Source: Crateriforma spongiae (GTDB lineage: Bacteria; Planctomycetota; Planctomycetia; Pirellulales; Pirellulaceae). From it: a stretch of 64,000 bases of DNA. The notes beneath the pieces are model-generated. The model did not search any database, was not told the DNA's origin, and saw only the letters and a list, made by a program, of their open reading frames with translations. Within the stretch, counting starts at the first letter, position 1. Each line of letters begins with the position of its first letter. Shown in pieces: positions 6,804 through 38,732 of the stretch. Location: the NCBI RefSeq assembly GCF_012290005.1, contig NZ_JAAXMS010000006.1, positions 124,001 to 188,000 of the forward strand, written 5' to 3'. The position numbers and the translations under genes are program-made.

Positions 6804-9799
6804 AGGTTTCAAGAAGATGGTGTCCGCAGGCCGCGTGGGCGTCGGCCGGTTCGATCTCGCGGAGTGGCCTGGTCCATCGAATTTTTTGGGCTGTCTGCTT
6901 TGCCCTGGTCCTGGGCGTTGCCGGATCGGTCCAGGCCCAGCGTGTTTGTCGATTTCCCGATTACAGCGCCGTCGACGTCCTGCGTGAAGAATCACGTCTG
7001 AACGCGGTGGCCGTGTCGCCCGATGGGCAAACGTGCGTGACCGTCGGTGATCGCGGGGTGATTCTTCGCTCGGCCGATCGTGGACAGACATGGGCTCTGG
7101 TGGAATCGTCCACGCGGGCTCGGTTGGATGACGTCACGGTGGTTTCGCCCGACCTGTGGGTGGCCGTCGGTGGGTTTGACGACCCGGTGACCGGGATCAG
7201 CCGCGGTGTCGTGCTCAGATCGACCGATGGCGGCCGGTCTTGGGCACGCGGCATCGATGGCGATCTGCCACGTCTGGGCCAAGTCAAATTCGATGCGGCA
7301 CGTCGTTGTCTGGTCGCCGATGGCCGGTTCAGTTTTGCCGATCTGACCGATCGCTTTGAAAGCTACGACGGCGGGCGGCAATGGCAGGGTGCGGCGGCAA
7401 AGGCACCGGAGGTTCAGCGTGCGTTGCCACCAGCAGCGAAAGCACCGATCGTTGACGGGCCTGCCGACGGCGTCGCACGCGCCTCGGTCACGATCACAGG
7501 CCGCCATGGCGATCATGGATCCGTTGAACAGATTGCCGTCGGCGATCACGGCCGCATCTGGCGACGCCGCGTACCGTCGACCGCGGGCGAAACGGCAGAT
7601 GGCACAATTCCCGATGACGATGCGACGGCGGCCGGTGCTTGGCAAGCGGTCCGTGGCGACGCCCGCCGCACCGCGATTCTGGTCGTCACCACCGACCGAA
7701 TCCAAACGCCGTGGCGGCTGATCGCCAGCGAAGTGTTGCAGTCGGGCCAGCGGACGGCCGTTCTGTGGTGGGACCAAGATTCGTCAGGCCGGGCGTCGAA
7801 CGCAACCGAACGCACGGCGGATTTGGATCGATTTCATGACGCGGTCGTGCAGATGGGCGGTGTCGGCGTCGATTATCAACCTGCCGCTCAACCGTCAGAT
7901 TCAGCCGACGATGTCTCGCATCCCGAGTGGATCAACACTTGGCTGCGCCGTCATCGTCCGGCGGTGTTGGTGATCGACCGTCGCATGTCGCGATCGGTGC
8001 GTCAGGCGTGGTTGCACGCCGCCGTGAAGGCTCAGGTGCAACGCGTTGTCGACTATCAATACGGCACGTCGGGCGACACTCTGATGCATGCCGGCGCGTT
8101 GTACCCGCGGCTGGGTGTGGTCGCCGGTGATTTGCAGAACGATGCGTGGATGACACTGGGACCCGATGCGGCGATCAGCGCGGGGACATCGGGCGAGCTG
8201 AATCACTTGGCTTTGCGTTGGTTGTATGACGCCCGAGGTTCCGTGGTGCCCGGCGAAAGCATTGCGTCTGGTCTGCCACTGTCGTCGGGTTACCGGATCG
8301 CGGCCGGGTTGCCGACCGCTTCGCGACGTGACGTCCAGATCGCACAAGCACGGATCGGACTGACCCGCAAAGTCGAAGCCCTGTTGGGGCTATCCGAAAC
8401 GGGGGATGGCGACGGGGCGTCTGTGCCGTCCGGCCGGCAATCGATGCAGGGAACCTTGAAACAACAATTGGATGCTCTGGTATCGCAATTCGATTCCGAT
8501 GATCGGTTAGCGGTGCTGTGGCGTTTGTATCGCCGGGCGACCGATGCATTGGAAAGGTCCGGGCCCATCCGGCCGGTCGATCCGAGCGAATCACAGCGAA
8601 TCCTTTTGGAACAAATCGCCAGCCGTTTTCAGTCGCAAAGCGTCGGACAGTGGGCAGCCCTGCGGTCGAAAGTGCTGGCAGCCAGCCAGGAACGAAGCAT
8701 GTTGGCCGCGACTTCCCTGCCGGCTTTCTTGACCGAAACGTCCGACGATCGGCCCCGACATTCGGTCGAGGTGGTTCGGTCGTCGCCCTTTCAAACCGAC
8801 AGCGTCCATCCAAGCGAAGCCCAGCCAGTGGATCCGTCGATCGGTGGAATCGATTCGCCTTTTCAAGTGGAACGAACGCGATTGAAGGGCAAGGCGACGT
8901 TGGGAACCTTAGGCCAATTCGGCGAAGCGGTGTTTCCGGGGGCACGCGCCGGCGATGTTTCCGCACCGTCATCCAAGGAACCGGGCGCCGTCGATCTGCA
9001 GTGGGAATTTCATCCCTGGCGACTTTGGCTGAAACGGCCGGGCGGATGTTTGGACACCGATGCCCATTCCGACACGTCGACCGAAAGTGAAAACATGGAC
9101 GCAGCGATCGCCGGTGCACCTGAACCCGTCCTCGGCGGCGATTCGCTATCACCGGGGCTGCAGCGTTTGGCGATGGCCGATCGTACGAACGGCTGGGGCG
9201 AATTGCTGACCCGTGCGACGATGGTCGCCCCCGTGGCGGTCACACCGACGCGTCCTTGGCTGGACGGTCGCTTGGATGACGCCTGTTGGCGGGAAGCGAC
9301 GGAAACCCGACGCGAAGGCGTTCGATATCGCTTCGCCAGTGACGACGAATTCCTTTTTGTCGCGGTGGTTTGCGGCGAAGCAACAAAAATCGACGCGGGC
9401 GGATCGGCTCCGGTGCAAGCGTCGGTGTCAACGGGATCCGCCGATTCTGCTAAACGTCGCGACCACGATTTGTCGCAACGGTCGCATTTGGAATTGCGTC
9501 TGGATGTCGACGGAGACCTGACGACGGCTTACCAGATCGCGATGACGGCCGATCGACACACGTTCGACGGCGTCGACGGTATGTCGGGTTGGCAGCCGAC
9601 TTGGTTTTATGCCAGCGAAGCGGACGACAGCGGTGTCACGTTCGAAATCGCCATCCGGCGCAACGACTTGCAACGCGACGGTGAAACCACGGATGTCTGG
9701 TTCGCACAAGTCCGCTGGTCACAGCCCGGTGCATCACACCGTGATCGTCTGTTGCCACAGCCGACCGATTGGGTGCGTTTACGCTGGCCGGTGCAATAG
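6800..9799 (+). CDS. Large exported protein with Ycf48-like propeller and DOMON/CBM9-like C-terminus
   Basis: The protein is 999 aa if translation starts at GTG 6800, overlapping the crcB stop by four bases. The frame stays open upstream inside crcB, but that part is out-of-frame shadow. Residues about 25-50 form a signal peptide ending at an AQA-like site. Residues about 55-160 contain Ycf48/BNR-type motifs (AVSPDGQTCVTVGDRG, LRSADRGQTW, LRSTDGGRSWARG). The middle 600 residues have no motif I recognise; an alpha/beta stretch near 320-480 and a variable Ser/Pro-rich part are visible. The last 190 residues (RPWLDGRLDDACW, then LELRLDVDGD) look like a DOMON or CBM9-type sugar/heme-binding beta sandwich. 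The function is unknown, probably periplasmic or cell-surface. The coupling to crcB may be incidental. Confidence 0.75.
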   Translation: MKVSRRWCPQAAWASAGSISRSGLVHRIFWAVCFALVLGVAGSVQAQRVCRFPDYSAVDVLREESRLNAVAVSPDGQTCVTVGDRGVILRSADRGQTWALVESSTRARLDDVTVVSPDLWVAVGGFDDPVTGISRGVVLRSTDGGRSWARGIDGDLPRLGQVKFDAARRCLVADGRFSFADLTDRFESYDGGRQWQGAAAKAPEVQRALPPAAKAPIVDGPADGVARASVTITGRHGDHGSVEQIAVGDHGRIWRRRVPSTAGETADGTIPDDDATAAGAWQAVRGDARRTAILVVTTDRIQTPWRLIASEVLQSGQRTAVLWWDQDSSGRASNATERTADLDRFHDAVVQMGGVGVDYQPAAQPSDSADDVSHPEWINTWLRRHRPAVLVIDRRMSRSVRQAWLHAAVKAQVQRVVDYQYGTSGDTLMHAGALYPRLGVVAGDLQNDAWMTLGPDAAISAGTSGELNHLALRWLYDARGSVVPGESIASGLPLSSGYRIAAGLPTASRRDVQIAQARIGLTRKVEALLGLSETGDGDGASVPSGRQSMQGTLKQQLDALVSQFDSDDRLAVLWRLYRRATDALERSGPIRPVDPSESQRILLEQIASRFQSQSVGQWAALRSKVLAASQERSMLAATSLPAFLTETSDDRPRHSVEVVRSSPFQTDSVHPSEAQPVDPSIGGIDSPFQVERTRLKGKATLGTLGQFGEAVFPGARAGDVSAPSSKEPGAVDLQWEFHPWRLWLKRPGGCLDTDAHSDTSTESENMDAAIAGAPEPVLGGDSLSPGLQRLAMADRTNGWGELLTRATMVAPVAVTPTRPWLDGRLDDACWREATETRREGVRYRFASDDEFLFVAVVCGEATKIDAGGSAPVQASVSTGSADSAKRRDHDLSQRSHLELRLDVDGDLTTAYQIAMTADRHTFDGVDGMSGWQPTWFYASEADDSGVTFEIAIRRNDLQRDGETTDVWFAQVRWSQPGASHRDRLLPQPTDWVRLRWPVQ

Positions 9800-9899
9800 C
9801 GTTGTGCCGCGTCTGTTAGAATAGGGTTCCGCGGAATCGTGCGGACGATTGCGGCTTGATGTGCATGATTGTTGATGGACGCCAAAGGCGGGTGACGCG

Positions 9900-10772
9900 A
9901 TGAAGATTCTGATTGCGGTGGACGGTTCCCCCGATTCGATGGAAGCGGTAAAGGCGATCGGTCGCCTGACGGAAAAGACGCCTTCGCAGATTTTGCTGGC
10001 CACGGTGGTCAATCCTCCGGAGGTCCCGATCGACGCCTCGGCCGACTTGTGGGTGCCTCAGTTGTTGCAACAACAGGAGGAATTGGCGGCGTCGACGTTG
10101 GACAATGCGGCGGCCTTGTTGGCCGGTCACGACCATGTGACGACCAAGACCTGCACCGGGCACGTGACCCATTCCATTTTGGACACCGCCGATGAATACG
10201 GTGCGGACTTGATCGTCATCGGTGCGGTCGGGCATTCGGCCGTTGCCCGCATCGTTTTGGGCAGCGTCAGCGACGACGTTGCCACTCATGCCAAGCAAAG
10301 CGTTTTGGTGTACCGACGCAGCGAAGGGTTCGCCGCCGGTGGGAACGACTTGCGTGTCACCGTCGCCTATGACGGATCCGATTCATCGGAAAAGGCGTTG
10401 GTTGATTTTGCCAACGTCGATTGGTCCGGAGACGCCATCGTCAATGTGGTCTCGGTGGCTTCGCGGTTGGAAATGTTCGGTCAAGAAATCACACCCGCGG
10501 CGATCGAAGAATCCGCCAAACGTCGTACCGATGCCAAGCGTTTGGCCGTCGTGGGGGCCGAGCGTTTGAAGAAGCACGTCGCCACCGTTGCCGCAACCAT
10601 GATGGAATCAGACCACCTGGGCGAAGGCATCATGAAAGCGGCCGCCGAACACAACAGCGGTTTGATCGTGGTGGGCGACAAAGGGCACGGCTTTGTTGCC
10701 CGTCTGTTGATGGGCAGCACGTCACGCTATGTGTTGCGGCACGCCACACAGTCCGTCTTGATCGCTCGCTAA
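9900..10772 (+). CDS. Universal stress protein with tandem UspA domains
   Basis: This 290-aa protein has two UspA folds in tandem (about residues 1-140 and 150-290). Each starts with a beta strand followed by DGS (AVDGSPDS and AYDGSDSS). Each ends in the nucleotide-binding pattern G-x2-G-x9-GS (GAVGH...LGSVS and GDKGH...MGSTS), so both halves probably bind ATP. Cytoplasmic; tandem Usp proteins of this kind are linked to stress survival and redox or hypoxia responses, but the role here is not shown. It stands 100 bases after the previous gene and converges on the PAS-AraC gene with a 50-base gap. Confidence 0.9.
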   Translation: MKILIAVDGSPDSMEAVKAIGRLTEKTPSQILLATVVNPPEVPIDASADLWVPQLLQQQEELAASTLDNAAALLAGHDHVTTKTCTGHVTHSILDTADEYGADLIVIGAVGHSAVARIVLGSVSDDVATHAKQSVLVYRRSEGFAAGGNDLRVTVAYDGSDSSEKALVDFANVDWSGDAIVNVVSVASRLEMFGQEITPAAIEESAKRRTDAKRLAVVGAERLKKHVATVAATMMESDHLGEGIMKAAAEHNSGLIVVGDKGHGFVARLLMGSTSRYVLRHATQSVLIAR

Positions 10773-27123: not shown

Positions 27124-27164
27124 GATTCGTCGGTCGGTAGGCTTCAAAAGCCGGCCGGCGAATC
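27124..27164. terminator. Hairpin at convergent DUF4198 / GT2 junction
   Basis: Imperfect inverted arms (GATTCG-TCGGTCGG... and CCGGCCGGCGAATC) with some G-U pairs span the stop of the GT2 gene. The stem is GC-rich, but no T-run follows on either strand. Confidence 0.3.
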
Positions 27165-28001
27165 GATGACGGTCGCGGCCACTTCGTCCTTGTTGGGACA
27201 CCGCAGCACATCGATTTGGTCGGAACCAGGATCGAACCGAATCAGGTCACGTTCGGCGAACGCATGAAGCCAAGACTCCATGGGCCAAACATCCCACTTG
27301 CGGCGGAATCGTTCGGCGTTGGAAACGATCTGGCTGAAGTGATTCAGCGGTGGCTTGCAGACCGGATGGTGCTGGTGAAATGCGACAGCCGCAACAAAAC
27401 CGAATGGCACACCGGCGCGTCTTGCCGTGAAGGCAAAATCGGTGTCTTCGCCACCATAGCCTTCGTACCCGGTATCAAATCCGCCGATCGTTTCGAAGGC
27501 TTCGCGACTGATCCCAAAGCACAAAGACCAAAACCGGTGATAGTCCTGCGACGGCTGTCTGTCCGTTATCAGTTTCGGTTGCAAGGGATGACGCACCGAC
27601 AGCGGCATCAAGTCGTTCATCGTCCAATGATCGGTTGTCGCGCCCTTGGGTAGGTAGCGAACATCGCCCATCCATAGACCACCGGCCTGTTGAACGGTGT
27701 CGACCATCGCTGGAAACAATGTGGGCGATGCGATGCAATCGACGTCCAAAAACACCATCGTTTCGGTGCTGCAACGGTCCGCCGCCCGGTTGCGGGCTTC
27801 GGCCAGCGGCAAACGTTCGCCGTCGCCATTGACGCGATCGATCACGACATCGACGCCGGGGATGCTCGGCGGATCCACGTCCTCATCCATGCCGACGATG
27901 ATCCACTGGTCCGGCTTGCGATGAGATTCGGTGATGCTGCGGCCTTGATTCCATAAATGGTTTCGACGACCACGGACGATCGTCATCACGCTGAAGGACA
28001 T
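27144..28001 (-). CDS. Family 2 glycosyltransferase
   Basis: The 285-aa enzyme has a GT-A fold with an N-terminal nucleotide-sugar binding region (VMTIVRGRRNHL) and a VFLDVDC acidic motif near residue 95, which is the DxD metal-binding site. A galactosyltransferase-type C-terminal segment follows (GGFDTGYEGYGGEDTDFAFTARRAG). No membrane helices, so it is soluble or membrane-associated. Its start overlaps the upstream glycosyltransferase gene by 16 bases, so it is the third gene of a three-gene operon. The sugar donor and acceptor are not evident. An exopolysaccharide or glycoconjugate role is inferred. Confidence 0.88.
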   Translation of the reverse strand: MSFSVMTIVRGRRNHLWNQGRSITESHRKPDQWIIVGMDEDVDPPSIPGVDVVIDRVNGDGERLPLAEARNRAADRCSTETMVFLDVDCIASPTLFPAMVDTVQQAGGLWMGDVRYLPKGATTDHWTMNDLMPLSVRHPLQPKLITDRQPSQDYHRFWSLCFGISREAFETIGGFDTGYEGYGGEDTDFAFTARRAGVPFGFVAAVAFHQHHPVCKPPLNHFSQIVSNAERFRRKWDVWPMESWLHAFAERDLIRFDPGSDQIDVLRCPNKDEVAATVIDSPAGF

Positions 28002-29095
28002 GGTGACGTTTCCGTTTGTGAACGTTTTTGTTTAGCGGCCCATTGTGCTGTTGATGTCAGATAGCTGGCCGCCTGTTGCGCCCCGTCCTCTTGAAAAACG
28101 CGATCCCATTGGCTGGTGTCCAGCCGGCGGGCCCGATCCAGGAGTTTTGGCCAGCTGCCAGCTTCGGGCCAGCGCGACAATCCGACCGCCAAGCCCTCAC
28201 GGTCGAGTATCCTGGCTTTGCGGATCTGTTCGTCGAAGGGGCGATCCTGGGCAATGGCGATCATCGGTCGCCGATAAGATCCGATTTCCATCACACTGTT
28301 GTGCCCCGCCGCGGTGACCACGACATCGGCGTGACGATAGATATCTTGGGGGGATTCTTGCCAGCCAAGAAAGCTTAGGTTTGCCGGACCGGCCGGGTGG
28401 TGTTCGTCGTCATCCAGTCCGATCACCAGCCACTGAAAATCGGGGCACTCGTTCGCTGCGGAACGCAGTGGGGCGTGCGCATCAGCATGTCCTCCCCGTC
28501 CAAACATGACGACCACGGTGGGACGTTCATGCTGTGGTATCGTCTGTGGCGCCTTTTCCGGTTCTCGGCGAAAACCGTTCAGATAGATCGTCTTTTGGCG
28601 GACCCAGGACGGTGTGATGTCGTCCTCCCAAGATTCCGGAAAAGGTGCCAGCAGTGAAATCGCTGCGGCGTATGCATTGTGATGCGCATCGTCATCACGG
28701 CGACCATGTTGGCGGACGACGACTTGTGGGATGGAGGCCAAACGCGTCAGCATCGAAGTTTCTGCCGAAACATCCACGACCATCAAGTCCGGCTTGGCAT
28801 CTTGCAACCACCCCGTGTATGCGGCGACGCGTGCAGTGATGTTGCTTGTCCACAAAGGAGCGTAATGCAGGGCGGGAACTTCTTGACGATGCCGATAGCC
28901 ATGATCGGGAACATCATCGATGTCACTGGGAAGGTCCATCACATCGATCAAGTGTTTGCCCGACCACGCGGCATCGCCACATCGACTGGTGATGACCGTG
29001 CAATCGCAATCCAGATGACGCATGATTGCTTCGGCCCGATGTTTGTGGCCCAATCCGTGATAGTGGACATAAAAGCCGACATGAGGACGGTTCAT
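27986..29095 (-). CDS. MurG/GT28-like glycosyltransferase
   Basis: This 369-aa enzyme begins at ATG 29095, overlapping the preceding GT4 gene stop by four bases. A longer frame upstream is unconserved. The N-terminus HVGFYVHYHGLGH (Gly/His-rich phosphate-binding loop) and a C-terminal segment with HADVVVTAAGHNSVMEIGSYRRPMIAIAQDRPFDEQ give the GT-B fold of the MGT/MurG type. It probably transfers a sugar from a nucleotide donor to a lipid or glycan at the inner membrane. The operon context with GT4 and GT2 genes points to assembly of one oligosaccharide. Confidence 0.85.
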   Translation of the reverse strand: MNRPHVGFYVHYHGLGHKHRAEAIMRHLDCDCTVITSRCGDAAWSGKHLIDVMDLPSDIDDVPDHGYRHRQEVPALHYAPLWTSNITARVAAYTGWLQDAKPDLMVVDVSAETSMLTRLASIPQVVVRQHGRRDDDAHHNAYAAAISLLAPFPESWEDDITPSWVRQKTIYLNGFRREPEKAPQTIPQHERPTVVVMFGRGGHADAHAPLRSAANECPDFQWLVIGLDDDEHHPAGPANLSFLGWQESPQDIYRHADVVVTAAGHNSVMEIGSYRRPMIAIAQDRPFDEQIRKARILDREGLAVGLSRWPEAGSWPKLLDRARRLDTSQWDRVFQEDGAQQAASYLTSTAQWAAKQKRSQTETSPCPSA

Positions 29096-30162
29096 GCTGC
29101 CGCCTCCAAACGATGACGTGCGTACAACGATTCGTACTGGTCGACCATGCGTTGGAACCCGAAACGTTTCTGGGCGATACGCCGGCAAGCCAACCCGTTG
29201 ATGTCGATGCACTGTAAAGCGGCACGTGCAAGGTCCGATGAATCACCGGGGCATGCCAATCGACCGACCGCGGGAGTGATCAGTTCGGGCAATGCACCGC
29301 GTGCAAACCCTGCGACGGGGGTTCCGCAAGCCAAGGCTTCGGCCACCACTAAACCGAAGGGTTCGTCCCAGCATGGTGTGACCAATGCCACCGCGGATCG
29401 GCTGAGTAAGCCGCACAATTCTTCATGGGTCAAGTGGCCGTGATAGCAATCGGTGTCCTGCAGTCGCGGTTGAATCTCGTGGTCGAAGTATTCGGAATCC
29501 GCAACCGGTCCGGCGATGTCGATGGGTAACCCTGCCGCGTGTGCCGCATCAATTGCGTGGTGGGGCCCCTTGTCCGCCAGGATGCGACCAAACCATATGG
29601 CACGACGCTGTTTCGGCTGATGACACTTCTTCCAAAACGATGTGTCGACGCCGTTGTAGATAATGGTTTGTTGGCTGATGCAAGATCTCCATCGTTCGGC
29701 GTTGGCATTGGAGATGTTGACGAATGCGCCACTGTTGTCACTGCCGCGATCCGCAAGTTCGTCGACCATTCGGGGCAACGGTGGCGTGTGCAGCGTGGTG
29801 ATCATCGGCATCGGTAACGTCGACGCGAAAGCTAACGGCAACGGGCTGAGGGTGTGGTTATGAATCACGTCAAAATTGCTTGCCGCCAGACCGGCCATCA
29901 GAGAAGCATAGGCTTCGTTCTCCACCGACTCGATCCATTCATGATGAACACGCTGTAGGCGACGCTTTGAATCGGCAACCGTCGCACGCTTAATGATGGA
30001 GACCAAAGGTAGGGTTGGGTCCGAATCGCCACTGGCAAACAAAGTGACGTCATGACCACGCTTGGTCAGTGAATGTACGAATGAATCCGTGAACGTTTCC
30101 AAACCGCCGGCGAATGGCTTCGCAATGGGATGCTTCAGGTGCCCGATGATTCCGATTTTCAC
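29092..30162 (-). CDS. GT4-family glycosyltransferase
   Basis: The 356-aa GT-B enzyme has an N-terminal Gly-rich loop PFAGGLETFTDSFVHSL and a C-terminal nucleotide-sugar binding region with HEELCGLLSRSAVALVTPCWDEPFGLVVAEALACGTPVAGF. The EPFGLVVAEA block is the E-x7-E motif of retaining GT4 enzymes. It is first of three overlapping glycosyltransferase genes, its stop sharing ATGA with the next start. Cytoplasmic. Acceptor and product are unknown. Confidence 0.9.
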   Translation of the reverse strand: MKIGIIGHLKHPIAKPFAGGLETFTDSFVHSLTKRGHDVTLFASGDSDPTLPLVSIIKRATVADSKRRLQRVHHEWIESVENEAYASLMAGLAASNFDVIHNHTLSPLPLAFASTLPMPMITTLHTPPLPRMVDELADRGSDNSGAFVNISNANAERWRSCISQQTIIYNGVDTSFWKKCHQPKQRRAIWFGRILADKGPHHAIDAAHAAGLPIDIAGPVADSEYFDHEIQPRLQDTDCYHGHLTHEELCGLLSRSAVALVTPCWDEPFGLVVAEALACGTPVAGFARGALPELITPAVGRLACPGDSSDLARAALQCIDINGLACRRIAQKRFGFQRMVDQYESLYARHRLEAAA

Positions 30163-30412: not shown

Positions 30413-30628
30413 ATGAGTTTCGTTCAGACCGTTGCATGGGAATTGATTGATGGTGGACCAGGGCGGTATGAGATTCGCAAAGAGATTTGCAAACCTACGC
30501 ACAGCATTGCGGTGGTGACTTGGACGTCGGAAAACCGGCGGGCGGTGCGGACAGGAGACTGGCTGCAATTTCGACACCGTTTTGATGACCGATTTTCGAC
30601 CCATGCGGATTTGATGAGCCCGAATTGA
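30413..30628 (+). CDS. Small hypothetical ORF coupled to MATE gene
   Basis: A 71-aa frame ends in TGA overlapping the MATE gene start by one base (TGATG at 30626-30630), a hallmark of translational coupling. ATG 30413 is the only start before an obvious coding-like stretch (TVAWELIDGGPGRYEIRKE). The longer frame from 30308 is less likely. Its translation is moderately charged and has no recognised motif. Its reality rests on the overlap and on lying in a gap between the divergent glycosyltransferase genes and the MATE gene. Confidence 0.4.
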   Translation: MSFVQTVAWELIDGGPGRYEIRKEICKPTHSIAVVTWTSENRRAVRTGDWLQFRHRFDDRFSTHADLMSPN

Positions 30629-32022
30629 TGCTGCGTGATGAACGTCGAACCGCGAATCAACGCAAGCCAAAGCGACGGGAATCAAGCGAGTTCGGTTATG
30701 CGGCTTTGTTGAAGGTGGCCGTACCCTTGGCGGCAACCGTTGGCTGTTTTTCGATCACGCTTTTTACCGATCGGACGTTGTTGATGTGGTATGAACCCAC
30801 GTCGTCCGCAGCGTCGGTGGCGGCGGGAAATCTTTATTGGGCAGTGGCCTGCATTCCCGTAAGCGCAATGGGGTATGTCACGCCTTTGGTGGCGATGCAG
30901 ATGGGGCGGCGAGATCGACGTCTGGCAAACATCCAGATCTGGTCGCTGATCTGGCAATGCATTTGGATGGCTGCCGCCAGTGTGCCGGTCTTTATGATGA
31001 TCGGATGGGCCAGTCCGATTTTGTTTCAAGCGTTTGACCACGAACCGGCGCTCGCAAAAGCGGAAGCCGGATACTTTCGCATTCTATTGTGGATTGCCCC
31101 TGCATCGATGTTAGAAGCCGGGCTGACGGCATTCTTCGTGGGGCGGCGTATCACGCGACCGATTCTGCGGATGAATCTATTTTCCGCAGCGGTGAATGTG
31201 GGTTTGGATGTTTGGCTGATCTTCGGAGGCCTCGGTGTTCCGGCGATGGGAGTCCGCGGCGCGGCGCTCGCGACTGTCTTGGCGATGTGGCTAAAGGTTG
31301 CCGGTTTCGCAACGCTAATGACACGTTTGCGATCCTTCGCACGGTATCGAACCGTTGCATGGAAGCCGGATTTGTCGGTGGCCACCAAAATCGTGGGACC
31401 TGGATCTGCTTTAGGCGTTCAGCAGTTGATCCGGTCGGCGTTGTTCAGTTTCATCTTGCTGGTCATTGGTGCCGCGTCGGTCAATGGGTTGGCGGCAACG
31501 TCCGCAACGCTTTCTTTGTATCAATTGTTATCAATTCCGGTCATTGGGCTGGCAACTGCCGTGACAGTGGTCACTGGTCAAGCCTTCGCCGGACATGGAC
31601 GTGAAGTCGCCTCGCAGGTGATCCGGCGTGGCCTGGTCTTGGGTCTGACAACGGCGGGGATCATCAGCGTGTTGTTGATGTTCGCAACGGACCCTTTGCT
31701 TCAAATCCCGCTGCGCGGCGTCGACGAAGGCAGAAAGGACCAGATTTATCAGATCGCCAGCGTGCTGATGATCTATGCAGCGGTATATGGGATCGCCGAT
31801 ATCGTTGGGTTGCTGTTGGGAGCGGCGGCCAAAGGACTCGGACGGACGACTATCATCCTGGCAGCCACCGCTGGTTCCGGGATCGCAGTCGTCGCCATAG
31901 CGTGGTGGATTCGCCCGCATGACGAAACCGCGGTGTCGTTCTGGTGGTCCGCTTTGGTGATTTGGGCCGTGTTGCAGGCCGGATGGATTGGACTGCATTT
32001 ACGCCGCTTGGCGAATCGATAA
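30628..32022 (+). CDS. MATE-family efflux transporter
   Basis: The 464-aa protein has about 12 membrane helices in two pseudo-repeated halves. ATG 30628 overlaps the stop of the small upstream ORF; a TTG at 30625 is also in frame. The pattern of helices with small residues (FSITLFTDRTLLMW, VGLDVWLIFGGLGVPAMGVRGAALATV) matches the MatE/NorM/DinF family, which exports drugs or lipid-linked or small-molecule products using Na+ or H+. The divergent glycosyltransferase operon and the nearby diamino-acid operon are both possible sources of a substrate, but neither link is shown. The C-terminus ends in a positively charged tail. Confidence 0.88.
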   Translation: MLRDERRTANQRKPKRRESSEFGYAALLKVAVPLAATVGCFSITLFTDRTLLMWYEPTSSAASVAAGNLYWAVACIPVSAMGYVTPLVAMQMGRRDRRLANIQIWSLIWQCIWMAAASVPVFMMIGWASPILFQAFDHEPALAKAEAGYFRILLWIAPASMLEAGLTAFFVGRRITRPILRMNLFSAAVNVGLDVWLIFGGLGVPAMGVRGAALATVLAMWLKVAGFATLMTRLRSFARYRTVAWKPDLSVATKIVGPGSALGVQQLIRSALFSFILLVIGAASVNGLAATSATLSLYQLLSIPVIGLATAVTVVTGQAFAGHGREVASQVIRRGLVLGLTTAGIISVLLMFATDPLLQIPLRGVDEGRKDQIYQIASVLMIYAAVYGIADIVGLLLGAAAKGLGRTTIILAATAGSGIAVVAIAWWIRPHDETAVSFWWSALVIWAVLQAGWIGLHLRRLANR

Positions 32023-34538: not shown

Positions 34539-36008
34539 TCAGCGATCAATGTCGTCCAATCGTAGGTCGGCGCCCCCGTCAGCACCGATTACCAAGTTTT
34601 TAGCCAGCGGAAATTGATGCGACCGGCTCTCTAAGAAGTGCATCAGATAGCCGGCCGTGTTGGGAAACACGATATGGTCTCCGATACCGACGCCGCTGGG
34701 AAAACGGAACTTTCGCCAAGATAAGAGCTCCGATTCCATACAGTATGCGCCCACCAGATAGCCTTCCACGGCCGTTCGTGCTTCGCGATTGGATGGGATC
34801 AGCAGTGGATCGACCAAGAAGTCGTCGCTGGTCGTGCGGCACTGGGTGCGATTCATCGACAAGCCCAGCAGCCGGCGTCCACGTGTGTCTTGCTTTTGAA
34901 ATTCAATTCGTGCAATCGTGATCCCGCATCCGTCCAACAGGCTGCGTCCGGGTTCACATCGCAACTGCAGTCCGTTTTCTTTCAAAGCCTGAGCCACGGT
35001 TTGGCGGCCCACATTGGAATCCAGGACGGTCGCCAACCAAGTCGCTCGGGTCTGACTTTGGTAATACGGATACATCGACTGTGGTGGACCGACATCGGCC
35101 TGGTGGACAGAGCGAGAAAGCGGATTCCGGTTGTAAGTCACTTCATCGGTTCGCCCGCGGAGTGATTCGGCATGCTGGTCCCAGAAATGATCCCACTGAT
35201 CCTGGTGTTTCAGATAACACACCGGCAGTCCACCACCCATATCGATGAAGCGGGGATGATGGCCGGCGGTCCGCAAGCGTTTGGCCCAACGGATGGATTC
35301 GCCGATGGCGGTGACGCGTTGATGCGGATCGTAACCGTCCAGATGAAAATGCAGGCCAATGATTCGAATACGATCATCCACTGGAATCTCGGACAGGTTG
35401 CGGTCACGTTCACAATCGAATCCGAATCGCGATTCCAGTCGCCGGGTTCCGTGCAGAAACCCGCTCAGCCGCAACGCTACGATGGCTTGCTTTTGGTGAG
35501 TGGTCGCCAGGCAGCGAACACGTTCAAATTCGTCATGGTTGTCGATTGCGATGCAGATCTTGTTGTCCATGCATCGCCGGATCAGAGATTCCGATTTCAC
35601 CGCGGCGGTGCAGATCACATCGGCGGGCGGCAGATTTCGATCGAGCGTCTGTTCCAACTCGATTTCGCTGGCCGTATCGACGCCGATCCCCAGTTGATGT
35701 GCTTGATCGACGAACGACAAACACTTGTTGGCTTTGCGTGCAAAGAAGATGCGAAAGTCAACCTGACGCTCCGCCGCGATCTGATTCAATTCGGCGACGT
35801 TTTCGGCCATCCGGTGCGGATTCAACACGTTGACGGGTGACCCGTGCGGCTCAATCCGCTGACGAAATTCCGCCGCACTTAAGAACTGAACCATCCACGG
35901 TTCGATGCGTCCGGACAACGGCGGGACGCCTTGGCAGTATCGATCAAACGTTGGATCGTTGTCAGGCGATGTCGTTTGTTCCGTGATGGTTTCAGTGGGT
36001 GTGGGCAT
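34539..36008 (-). CDS. Group IV PLP-dependent decarboxylase (ODC/DAP decarboxylase fold)
   Basis: This 489-aa enzyme starts at ATG 36008, overlapping the FAD gene stop by 17 bases. It has the alanine-racemase/ODC fold: PLP Lys in FFARKANK near residue 92, GGGLPV, EPGRSLLDG phosphate-binding block near 345, and a catalytic Cys in GAYCMESEL near 425 at the other subunit's face. It should decarboxylate a basic or diamino acid (ornithine, diaminopimelate, diaminopropionate or a carboxylated adduct). Substrate is unclear. Context with an SbnA-like enzyme and an FAD oxidoreductase suggests a tailor-made pathway in which it acts last, as SbnH does in staphyloferrin B synthesis. Confidence 0.85.
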   Translation of the reverse strand: MPTPTETITEQTTSPDNDPTFDRYCQGVPPLSGRIEPWMVQFLSAAEFRQRIEPHGSPVNVLNPHRMAENVAELNQIAAERQVDFRIFFARKANKCLSFVDQAHQLGIGVDTASEIELEQTLDRNLPPADVICTAAVKSESLIRRCMDNKICIAIDNHDEFERVRCLATTHQKQAIVALRLSGFLHGTRRLESRFGFDCERDRNLSEIPVDDRIRIIGLHFHLDGYDPHQRVTAIGESIRWAKRLRTAGHHPRFIDMGGGLPVCYLKHQDQWDHFWDQHAESLRGRTDEVTYNRNPLSRSVHQADVGPPQSMYPYYQSQTRATWLATVLDSNVGRQTVAQALKENGLQLRCEPGRSLLDGCGITIARIEFQKQDTRGRRLLGLSMNRTQCRTTSDDFLVDPLLIPSNREARTAVEGYLVGAYCMESELLSWRKFRFPSGVGIGDHIVFPNTAGYLMHFLESRSHQFPLAKNLVIGADGGADLRLDDIDR

Positions 36009-37653
36009 GCAACCGGCTGGCGATGGTTTGGGACCAAGATTCGATCTGGTCGTGTAGTGTACGCGACAGAGTATCGTTGCCCAGGATCCAGCCTTCGGTG
36101 GCGCGACCAAAGATCGCCAGGCCGTCGGGCGAATTCACCGCCGCACCGTCGCGATGGATACGGATGCCGCCGGTTTCTTCGTCTTGGTGAAGGTGGCCTT
36201 GTTGCAGCAACGATCGAACGGGACCCGATTGATTGGCTTGGCTGGGGCCGGCGATGACTGCATCGATCACCGAGTCAACGCCCACCGGTGGTTCAGTTTC
36301 TTCGGCGATGCGGACATGACGCGATTTGATCAAACGCACCATCTTGGCCACGCTTCGAGCCGGTGGTCCGAACGCGATCTTTTCCATTTCCATCGCCACT
36401 TTATGGAACGTCTGATATTGTCCTGGTTCCAGTCCGCCAAAGCTGACCAGTTGCACCAATTGCGGATACAGACGACGCCAAGTTTCACCAATCGCATAGG
36501 CTTCGTTGATCGGACGCTTGGCATACGACACACAAACCGATTGAAACATGTGATGTTGTGCCGACGCCGCGTCCATTCGGTATCGTGACCAGCCGCGATA
36601 CCAGTGGTCGATGTCGCAGGCGGAGCAATCTTGACCACTGGCCGACATCAATCCGGCAGCGGCGTCGGTCAGGATGGGCCAAAGGTGTTGATTGAATCGA
36701 ATCTCTCCACGCTGTTTTTGCAATGCCGACAGTGCCGCTTGGAATGGCTGATAGAAAGTTCGATCGACCGGTTCCACCTTGCGAGTCGGTTTCGCCAACA
36801 TGGGACGTCCTGATCGACTGTGCAGCGAAATCTGTTCGGGCTCCAACATGCTGGGGATATAGCTGGGCAGAAATCCGTTGTCCAAGAATTTTCCGCCGCG
36901 GCCTTCGGTCAGGCTAAGGACTGCATCAATCGCCGTCAGACCAAATCCGCGGACGGCAACACGGCTGCCGGCCGGGATGCAGCTTCGGCAAAGCGAGTCT
37001 TGCACCGGATAGACAAAGCGAACAGGCGTGTGGTCATCTGTCGGTGGCAAGTCCACGTTGGCACGCAGGCCTTCGTGACCGGTTGCCAGAACAACCTCGT
37101 CAAAATTCCACCAACGCCCCTGCGACTTGATTTCCCAACGTTCACCATCGTGCCTCACGTCCGCGACTTTCGACTGGCGGTGTCGGAACACCGCAACGGC
37201 CTGAAGCCTTCGGCGAATGCGGACAAAAGCGTCGTGCAAGTATTCGCCGACCAGAGCGCGTGGAATGTAGGAATCCGCTTGGGCGTATTGCGGTGCGTTT
37301 TCAGCCAACCACTGCAGCAGCGATGGGCCTCGCAGCGATTTGCCATCGGTGTCCGCGTCGCTGGCAGTGCCGCCAGAGCGGTTCCAAACATCGATGTGTT
37401 CGGTGGCAAAGTTCATCTTCAACGAAGCGGGCTGGTCGGGCGAATAGATTACACCGGCGCCGGGGCATTCAGCGGGTTCGAACACGGTGACTTCGGTTCG
37501 TGCCAGATCTTCATTCGTCAAATGACGTGACAACGCATCCAAACAATGCAATCCACGAGGACCGCATCCGACGATTGCAATTCGGTACGGCTGACGCTGC
37601 GGGATCGTGGGGACGCCCCAACCGATGGTGCCAACGCTGGGTGCAATGCTCAT
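35992..37653 (-). CDS. FAD/NAD(P)-binding oxidoreductase (PF13454-type)
   Basis: The 553-aa protein begins with a Rossmann FAD site (IAIVGCGPRGLHCLDAL) and an E-x-x-x-G-A-G-V-I-Y motif, followed by a second dinucleotide-type segment (VVLATGHEGLRAN and GSRVAVRGFGLTAIDAVL). It matches the FAD_NAD_binding_9 family related to lysine/ornithine monooxygenases. The C-terminus is His-rich (HAHTH). It is sandwiched by overlap between an SbnA-like gene (4 bases) and the decarboxylase gene (17 bases). I infer it oxidises the adduct or amino-acid intermediate made by the first enzyme. Cytoplasmic. No characterised member with this gene order comes to mind. Confidence 0.82.
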   Translation of the reverse strand: MSIAPSVGTIGWGVPTIPQRQPYRIAIVGCGPRGLHCLDALSRHLTNEDLARTEVTVFEPAECPGAGVIYSPDQPASLKMNFATEHIDVWNRSGGTASDADTDGKSLRGPSLLQWLAENAPQYAQADSYIPRALVGEYLHDAFVRIRRRLQAVAVFRHRQSKVADVRHDGERWEIKSQGRWWNFDEVVLATGHEGLRANVDLPPTDDHTPVRFVYPVQDSLCRSCIPAGSRVAVRGFGLTAIDAVLSLTEGRGGKFLDNGFLPSYIPSMLEPEQISLHSRSGRPMLAKPTRKVEPVDRTFYQPFQAALSALQKQRGEIRFNQHLWPILTDAAAGLMSASGQDCSACDIDHWYRGWSRYRMDAASAQHHMFQSVCVSYAKRPINEAYAIGETWRRLYPQLVQLVSFGGLEPGQYQTFHKVAMEMEKIAFGPPARSVAKMVRLIKSRHVRIAEETEPPVGVDSVIDAVIAGPSQANQSGPVRSLLQQGHLHQDEETGGIRIHRDGAAVNSPDGLAIFGRATEGWILGNDTLSRTLHDQIESWSQTIASRLHAHTH

Positions 37654-38732
37654 GCTAAAACCTCATCTGAAACGGCGAAATCCGCCTGGGTTACCATTTG
37701 ATGTAGTCGCTCCGGTGCAATTCCAAGTGCGGACTGGACCCACTGGTCGTTGAACACCGTGTCCAGGTAACGCGTGCCCGAATCGTGCAGGATTCCGACA
37801 CAGCGTTTTCCGGCTAATTCGTTTTTCATCGTGGCGACCGTCGCAAGTACACCGCCAGATGATCCGCCCACCAGCATGGCTTCGCGTCTCGCAGCGACTC
37901 GGCAGCCGATCACACATTGCAAATCGGTCACGCGACGCACTTGGTCAAAGGATTGGCCTGCCGCCAATGCCGGGATCTTGCCCGCCCCCATGCCTGGAAT
38001 TTTTCGTGGACCGGGTGATCCACCGAACAACACGCTGTTGATCGAATCGACGGCGATGACGTCCACTTTGCGACCGCGTTGACGTAGAAAATCGCGACAT
38101 CCGCGAGCGGTTCCGGTGCTGCTGGTCGCTACCAACAACACGTCAAATTCGCCGGATAACGCACGGTCAATCTCCGCGATCGTGCCGTGGAAGTGAGCCA
38201 GTGGGTTGGCTGGATTGGCGTATTGGTTTGGCCAATACGCATTGGCGTGTCGCTGAAGCAAATCCTGAACGCGCGACAAGCGTGCTGTCAGAAAGTCGCC
38301 GTCGATCGGCCGCGTCACGGTTTCAATCTCGCCACCCAAGGCACGGATGATCGACAGATTGTTGACCTGTGCACGAGGGTCGACCACGCAAATGAAACGC
38401 AATCCGTGATAGGCACAAGCTTGGGCTAAACCAATGCCCATGTTGCCGGAGGATGATTCGATGATCACCGTTTGTTGATCAATCCTGCCGTCATCCAAGG
38501 CTTGTTGCAGCATCCGCTTGGCGGGACGGTCTTTCGCGCTGCCGCCCGGATTCAACGCTTCGACTTTGACCAACAGATCGATATCGGCGTCCGGCAGAAA
38601 ACGATCAAGGCGAATCAGCGGCGTCGATCCGATCGCGTCTAACACGCCATCGCATACCGAAGTGACCGCTGATCGACCGGTCGGAATGGCCCAGGGGCCA
38701 AACCGCGGGAGCGTGGTGGGGTTGATCAGCAT
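37650..38732 (-). CDS. SbnA-like PLP synthase (cysteine synthase fold)
   Basis: The 360-aa protein, using ATG 38732 (TTG 38753 is an alternative), belongs to the fold type II PLP family. PLP Lys lies in NPGGSAKDRPAK, phosphate loop in ESSSGNMGIGLA, and a late GGSSGG loop. It is closest to SbnA, which condenses O-phospho-L-serine and glutamate into an N-aminocarboxyethyl-glutamate en route to 2,3-diaminopropionate. Shared blocks are CVVDPRAQ, YWPNQYANP and HDSGTRYLD. It is first of the three-gene operon. Unlike staphyloferrin clusters, no SbnB-type dehydrogenase is present; the FAD protein may replace it. Confidence 0.82.
   Translation of the reverse strand: MLINPTTLPRFGPWAIPTGRSAVTSVCDGVLDAIGSTPLIRLDRFLPDADIDLLVKVEALNPGGSAKDRPAKRMLQQALDDGRIDQQTVIIESSSGNMGIGLAQACAYHGLRFICVVDPRAQVNNLSIIRALGGEIETVTRPIDGDFLTARLSRVQDLLQRHANAYWPNQYANPANPLAHFHGTIAEIDRALSGEFDVLLVATSSTGTARGCRDFLRQRGRKVDVIAVDSINSVLFGGSPGPRKIPGMGAGKIPALAAGQSFDQVRRVTDLQCVIGCRVAARREAMLVGGSSGGVLATVATMKNELAGKRCVGILHDSGTRYLDTVFNDQWVQSALGIAPERLHQMVTQADFAVSDEVLA

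Follow-up and report, generated by a model that had tools for sequence, protein, structure and literature searches.

A conserved gene trio of Crateriforma spongiae combining an SbnA-type synthase, a flavoenzyme of N-hydroxylase fold and a Y4yA-like decarboxylase: a candidate ligase-free pathway

We analysed a stretch of 64,000 nucleotides (hereafter the window) from the 6.87 Mb genome of the planctomycete Crateriforma spongiae (NCBI RefSeq assembly GCF_012290005.1, contig NZ_JAAXMS010000006.1, positions 124,001 to 188,000 of the forward strand), and focused on three overlapping genes in it, which we call A, F and D (Table 1). Sequence and fold assign their products to the SbnA-type pyridoxal phosphate (PLP) synthases, to the flavin adenine dinucleotide (FAD) enzymes with an N-hydroxylating monooxygenase fold and to the Y4yA-like PLP decarboxylases, respectively. 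We propose, as a possibility that we favour and hold tentatively, that this trio forms a ligase-free three-enzyme cassette; what F and D act on, and in which order the steps follow, is what we infer. In this scheme gene A would join O-phosphoserine and glutamate to give N-(2-amino-2-carboxyethyl)-glutamate (ACEGA). F, taking the place that SbnB has in the staphyloferrin B pathway, would then N-oxygenate the bridging amine of ACEGA (or the diaminopropionate derived from it), and further oxidation to a nitrone followed by hydrolysis would release 2-oxoglutarate and N3-oxygenated 2,3-diaminopropionate. Finally, D would remove the alpha-carboxyl group, leaving a small, probably N-oxygenated 1,2-diamine; for this last step the reaction class is supported and the substrate is presumed. 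In its more specific form, which we regard as possible but doubtful, the proposal describes a mobile pathway in which F, with its N-hydroxylase fold, would have displaced SbnB and the product would be a 1,2-diamine of the N-hydroxy- or nitro-ethylamine type.

Table 1. Features of the window discussed in the text, in window coordinates.
Feature	Position	Strand	Remarks
Gene A, SbnA-type PLP synthase	37650..38732	-	ATG start; TTG alternative at 38753
Gene F, FAD/NADPH enzyme, class B N-hydroxylating monooxygenase fold, PF13454	35992..37653	-	
Gene D, Y4yA-like fold-III PLP decarboxylase	34539..36008	-	ATG; upstream TTG alternative at 36110
Terminator-like stem-loop	34159..34186	-	Downstream of gene D; 11-pair stem, TTTTTC tail, consensus match only
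Multidrug and toxic compound extrusion (MATE) gene	30625-32022	+	PF01554

Gene A overlaps F by 4 bases and F overlaps D by 17, exactly as an earlier note made from the sequence of this DNA had described, and as the coordinates of the open reading frames (ORFs) confirm. All 14 examined loci with a full-length F (11 planctomycete, 2 from Sulfitobacter and 1 from Tsukamurella) show the order A-F-D, and the arrangement is hence not due to chance. These loci span three phyla and are partly plasmid-borne. A further FAD-gene locus, L011, falls outside the trio and is not part of these counts. In every one of the 14 a possible start codon of F lies between 4 bases inside and 2 bases past the end of A. 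A possible start of D falls 1-17 bases inside the end of F in 10; in the remaining 4 it lies 2 to 86 bases past the end of F or is ambiguous. Beyond the trio, no gene was common to more than 4 of the 14 loci in a comparison of neighbouring ORFs of at least 100 amino acids (E up to 1e-8), for which the upstream flanks were short (0.8-1.7 kb) in L003, L006 and L007.

Conservation across Planctomycetes, the check that the earlier note had called for, was found. Within the window's phylum, full-length F is present in 7 of 392 genomes (E <1e-165), with weak partial matches in five further genomes (E 1e-21 to 1e-25). The same 7 genomes carry a Y4yA-type D (E <1e-187), adjoining F in all of them, and the next matches to D in the phylum (E 4.5e-34 or worse) involve only the generic PLP domain. 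SbnA scores above its curated cut-off in 8 of the 392 genomes, namely the 7 trio genomes and G238, and a second copy is found in G385. Outside the phylum our survey consisted of a plasmid collection and one genome scan. The scan, run with D, confirmed four loci (L003-L006), all of them planctomycete and each in the order A-F-D; the same order was found on the two Sulfitobacter plasmids examined (out of 5 records with D and 5 with F) and on one Tsukamurella plasmid. On the latter (L008, 8550-10070) F is annotated as a 720-base hypothetical protein (9351-10070), and there is a 506-amino-acid open frame of the length usual in the family.

The reaction put forward for gene A is well supported by its sequence. 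Its product passes the cut-off of TIGR03945, the curated equivalog model of SbnA (364.6 bits, cut-off 349.95), and fails that of the CysK model (200.5 bits, cut-off 350.95), and its best match in the PDB is SbnA itself (5d84, E 3.7e-69). TIGR03945 is also passed by L004, L007 and all 7 trio copies of the phylum scan. According to excerpts of PMC12414870, O-phosphoserine is selected in SbnA by Arg132, Tyr152 and Ser185, and Lys47 is the PLP lysine. The product of gene A keeps the active-site residues K47, S75, R132, Q151, Y152 and S185 of SbnA, and Lys47, Arg132, Tyr152 and Ser185 are present in the SbnAs of all 14 trio loci. The first gene had already been called SbnA-like in the earlier note, and these scores and residues bear this out.

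F and D go together, both being missing behind the sbnA gene of G238. The flanks of this site are 90.2% identical to those of the trio site of G350 over 8.4 kb (sbnA included) and 94.4% identical over 3.5 kb. In G238 the sequence is missing from immediately behind the sbnA stop codon to about 97 bases past the stop codon of D, and sbnA is left alone (L068 8501-9592 in G238, compared with L034 8326-11648, L034 being oriented with the trio on the plus strand). The missing stretch presumably reflects a loss in G238. The solo SbnA of G238 has Arg132 replaced by Cys, and its gene differs from its counterpart in G350 by a synonymous divergence (dS) of 0.97, where three neighbours show values of 0.14-0.21, so that this copy has a history of its own. 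The second, solo SbnA of G385, unlike the G238 copy, shows no loss of substrate residues; in G385 (L067 8327-10888) the solo sbnA is followed by an FAD gene of the pyridine nucleotide-disulphide oxidoreductase type.

The middle gene is the one that sets the trio apart. F matches PF13454 (FAD-NAD(P)-binding, E 2.4e-32) and no other Pfam family; it shows no membership of the ornithine cyclodeaminase (OCD) family, and the earlier note was hence right in taking it for an FAD enzyme of a family other than that of SbnB. When a family profile was used, its sole strong solved relative was the L-aspartate N-hydroxylase FzmM (8cp2, E 1.3e-45), followed by flavin-containing monooxygenases at E 0.005. An AlphaFold2 model of F built from 5 sequences, of moderate confidence (mean predicted local distance difference test score, pLDDT, of 78.4), was matched by Foldseek to FzmM (8cp5/8cp2) over the whole length (template modelling (TM) score 0.74, root mean square deviation 5.6, E 3.1e-29), and more weakly to further class B monooxygenases, those of the SidA N-hydroxylase type among them. 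Identity to FzmM is 21-22% in the structural alignment. Because F has this flavin N-hydroxylase fold of FzmM and CreE, its default chemistry would be N-oxygenation and not plain dehydrogenation.

Excerpts of PMC10404684 describe Asn62 of FzmM as the catalytic residue over the flavin and Arg276, Asn413 and Arg416 as holding L-aspartate, the N413E mutation abolishing hydroxylation. In FzmM numbering, Asn62 is kept in all 14 F proteins. The position of Arg13 is occupied by Arg in 7 and by Lys in 7, that of Arg409 by Arg in 13 and by Lys in 1, and Trp51 and Arg266 are replaced in all 14, by Tyr and Lys respectively. An Arg matches Arg577 in 13 of 14, judged by eye from motif spacing since the automatic alignment is unreliable there. 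Around the substrate, on the other hand, all 14 proteins have Tyr for Arg412, Pro, Ser or Gly for Asn413 and Val or Ile for Arg416, and the column of Arg276, in a stretch that aligns poorly, holds Arg in 2 and a gap in 4. Judging from these residues and from the model, F looks like an N-oxygenase with a pocket rebuilt for a different substrate. We rejected the candidate role of an aspartate N-hydroxylase with CreD-type nitrite release, since the substrate residues are lost and no fourth gene that could be a nitrosuccinate lyase (CreD-type) is conserved at the 14 trio loci (no lyase model was run). Three Streptomyces CreE homologues (of 63 records) keep the aspartate-holding residues, and each adjoins a lyase-type gene.

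The earlier note had read the middle step as an oxidative release of diaminopropionate or a retention of the adduct. The chemistry is sharpened by the FzmM/CreE fold to N-oxygenation. One alternative is that F is a plain stand-in for SbnB, freeing L-2,3-diaminopropionate and 2-oxoglutarate without forming any N-O bond, in which case D would produce ethylenediamine or a similar diamine. These are the products that SbnB makes from ACEGA (excerpts of PMC7139808), and the oxidoreductase of other Y4yA cassettes is of the OCD or opine dehydrogenase type. Still, the core of a class B monooxygenase is preserved in F, catalytic Asn included, and among the structures nearest to it in fold are many N-hydroxylases, which use NADPH and O2 and do not reduce NAD+. 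We therefore consider a plain stand-in unlikely, albeit a serious contender.

Gene D matches PF02784 (the N-domain of Orn/Arg decarboxylases, E 1.4e-26). Its product is 41-42% identical to Sulfitobacter proteins annotated as Y4yA and about 30% identical to Y4yA of NGR234; no Y4yA model was among the Pfam or NCBIfam matches of the window proteins. Among the 14 D proteins the PLP lysine, GGG and EPGR motifs are found in 14, the His and Cys motifs in 13 and the C-terminal Tyr in 10, these last three counts depending on the patterns as written. The model of D (mean pLDDT 71.9) is nearest to D-ornithine/D-lysine (DokD) and diaminopimelate (LysA) decarboxylases. The structure 6knh, given as SbnH in excerpts of PMC7139808, is a weak match to D (E 1.1e-5, versus 9.3e-13 for LysA 3vab) and is absent among the best 50 listed fold neighbours of the model. 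By homology and modelled fold, D is Y4yA-like and not specifically SbnH-like, and the SbnH-like assignment of the earlier note is not supported.

Across the 14 loci the trio is accompanied by no conserved ligase, non-ribosomal peptide synthetase (NRPS), dedicated exporter, or metal transporter or receptor, and no ParB-N (SbnI-like) gene lies beside it. The IucA/IucC family (PF04183) was found in none of 10 trio genomes, which were partly drafts (G000 being 97.8% complete) and did not include the metagenome-assembled genome of L006, in keeping with the earlier observation that no IucA-type ligase is visible. It was not found either on the Sulfitobacter and Tsukamurella plasmids, for which the plasmids alone were searched. 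As positive controls, two rhizobial plasmids and the genomes of E. coli and Haloferax gave matches in this search. No SbnB equivalog (TIGR03944) exceeded its cut-off in the 10 trio genomes. The MATE exporter of the window, which had been linked to the trio, finds no counterpart among the ORFs of the other 13 trio loci and was rejected as a trio member; it is 25-29% identical to the MATEs adjoining OCD-type cassettes. A crude consensus test of the 300 bases upstream gave no Fur or Zur box above shuffles in any of the 14 loci; it is a weak test, with single-base shuffles and approximate sbnA starts in L004, L031, L034 and L035. On this weak evidence metal regulation of the trio was set aside. 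The metallophore role suggested earlier gains no positive evidence, there being neither a common transporter or receptor nor a box above shuffles.

These absences bear on a second alternative, in which the adduct is kept: D would decarboxylate ACEGA or an analogue and F would N-hydroxylate it, yielding an opine-like or ethylenediaminedisuccinate (EDDS)-like secreted metal chelator. A small product is indeed to be expected where the conserved unit includes no ligase, and one zinc-regulated chelator known from bacteria is the aminopolycarboxylate [S,S]-EDDS (excerpts of PMC9252823). Y4yA clusters of Hyphomicrobiales, moreover, adjoin iron ATP-binding cassette (ABC) transporter genes or a TonB siderophore receptor. 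Since none of this metal machinery is conserved at the 14 loci, and the Fur/Zur scores, crude as they are, do not exceed those of shuffles, we find a kept adduct improbable. Supply of a precursor for an NRPS-independent siderophore (NIS) with a synthetase encoded at another site of the genome is very improbable: rhizobial Y4yA clusters with an octopine/nopaline dehydrogenase do contain IucA/IucC and major facilitator superfamily (MFS) genes, but the lack of PF04183 in the 10 trio genomes searched, some of them drafts, by a search that was positive in controls, disfavours such a supply and led us to reject an NIS siderophore cluster. Finally, one of the cases that the earlier note had named as refuting its idea, in which gene A encodes an ordinary cysteine synthase and the genes beside it are unrelated, is hardly credible, for although gene A belongs to the fold II PLP family and resembles CysK and CBS closely in general terms, it passes the SbnA cut-off and misses that of CysK, and all 14 loci keep the trio.

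To place the trio among other Y4yA cassettes, we examined 18 plasmid loci out of 40 listed of 100 matching records, a sample and not a census. Three were of the FAD type, 7 carried an OCD-family enzyme, 6 an octopine/nopaline dehydrogenase (ODH)-family enzyme and 2, from Streptomyces, neither; gene order is not the same across the FAD, OCD and ODH types. The OCD type combines Y4yA with a CysK-like synthase and the OCD-family enzyme, accompanied by a ParB-N gene at 6 of 7 loci, a dedicated MATE at 6 of 7 and annotated iron ABC genes at 3 of 7. PF04183 is not found on 6 of the 7 plasmids of this type; the seventh, Aureimonas pAU20b, carries two copies at a great distance from its cassette. In the ODH type, the octopine/nopaline dehydrogenase-family enzyme stands with IucA/IucC and MFS genes. 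By this analogy, one functional slot seems to accept three unrelated oxidoreductases. In the Y4yA tree the OCD type (7 rows) and the ODH type (6 rows) each form one group at 100/100. SbnA residues were compared for 5 of the 6 ODH and 5 of the 7 OCD loci: Ser185 is missing in 10 of 10 synthases and Tyr152 in 9 of 10, Ser and Gly replacing Tyr152 and Ser185 in 5/5 of the ODH type and Gly replacing Ser185 in 5/5 of the OCD type.

Some side observations concern the same cassettes. At L038 (4471-9820), L043 (4307-9717) and L050 (4275-9786) an OCD cassette, made up of a ParB-N protein, the OCD enzyme, Y4yA, the CysK-like synthase and a dedicated MATE, adjoins iron ABC genes with no IucA/IucC beside it. 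Mycobacterium avium pMAH135 (L039) carries a similar OCD set, and the stretch examined there lacks iron ABC genes. On the two Streptomyces megaplasmids (L042 7001-11005 and L046 6001-8282) a Y4yA-like decarboxylase adjoins a CysK-like gene, and L042 additionally has a class V aminotransferase, possibly a fourth type of Y4yA cassette.

Several points weigh against our reading of the trio as an N-oxygenating pathway. F could have turned into an oxidase or a dehydrogenase, and in the portions of literature consulted there is no instance of a PF13454 enzyme that N-oxygenates a secondary amine. As the solo copies in G238 and G385 demonstrate, an sbnA gene can be maintained with no F and D behind it; the SbnA of Tsukamurella (L008, 343.6 bits) falls just below the TIGR03945 cut-off; and 6 of the 10 trio genomes hold OCD-like genes that score below the SbnB cut-off (98-112 bits) and are unlinked to the trio. 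In the tree, the FAD-type Y4yAs form one group (14 rows) with modest support (71/81, single in 68% of bootstrap trees). Furthermore, the five OCD- and ODH-type synthases tested score 235-240 bits and are not SbnA equivalogs, and because of these scores and the missing Ser185 and, mostly, Tyr152 their substrates may differ from those of SbnA. The OCD enzymes of two plasmids likewise reach only 88-91 bits with the SbnB model (cut-off 326.9). The parallel between cassette types is hence one by partner and not strict orthology, and offers support, not proof.

Around the trio of the window, terminator-like matches are about as common as in shuffles (6 sites in 5 kb versus a mean of 5.6). As for the neighbours, a relative of the catalase lies close to the trio of L035, and EcsC and MscL have none in the 13 other trio loci by ORF comparison. 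Three adjacent, glycosyltransferase-like genes at 27144-30162 resemble the three genes annotated as glycosyltransferases that lie close to the trio of the Sulfitobacter plasmid L010; the remaining trio loci hold no ORF like them.

If our proposal is true, diaminopropionate-type metabolism gains an oxygen-dependent branch built from an N-hydroxylase, encoded by a three-gene unit which is present in three phyla, partly on plasmids, and in which cluster callers would look in vain for a ligase, an NRPS or IucA. Taken with the other two types of Y4yA cassette, the trio would show that one pairing of synthase and decarboxylase accepts three unrelated oxidoreductases, and the unexplained y4yA family would become testable by reconstitution of three enzymes. 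The parts are of known kinds; we found no description of their combination, of the route or of the metabolite in the open-access literature, and the middle enzyme is what differs from the SbnA-type pathway.

The trio shares with the staphyloferrin B cluster of Staphylococcus aureus (SbnA/SbnB/SbnH) an SbnA-type synthase with the same active-site residues, and in both an oxidoreductase and a PLP decarboxylase of fold III belong to the cluster. In contrast, its middle enzyme is a PF13454 flavoenzyme where Staphylococcus has the NAD-dependent, OCD-family SbnB, its decarboxylase is Y4yA-like, and it has no NIS synthetase (10/10 genomes searched), ParB-N neighbour or conserved exporter. F resembles FzmM and CreE in its whole-length fold, with FAD and NADP domains and a helical substrate domain, and in Asn62, Arg409 (Arg or Lys) and the Arg577 position (13/14), whereas Arg276, Arg412, Asn413 and Arg416 are replaced and its genomic partners are SbnA and Y4yA instead of a CreD-type lyase. 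The rhizobial cluster y4yA-y4xP-y4xO-y4xN-y4xM of pNGR234a (excerpts of PMC3973906) likewise places a Y4yA decarboxylase beside a fold-II PLP synthase and an oxidoreductase; the latter is octopine/nopaline dehydrogenase-like, however, IucA/IucC and MFS genes are present, and the synthase is without two of the phosphoserine residues of SbnA. Lastly, the OCD cassette of Aureimonas, Agrobacterium vitis, Rhizobium and Mycobacterium avium plasmids resembles the trio in uniting Y4yA, a CysK-like synthase and an oxidoreductase with no IucA/IucC beside them, and differs in that its oxidoreductase is an OCD_Mu_crystall enzyme and that ParB-N (6/7 loci) and dedicated MATE (6/7) genes adjoin it.

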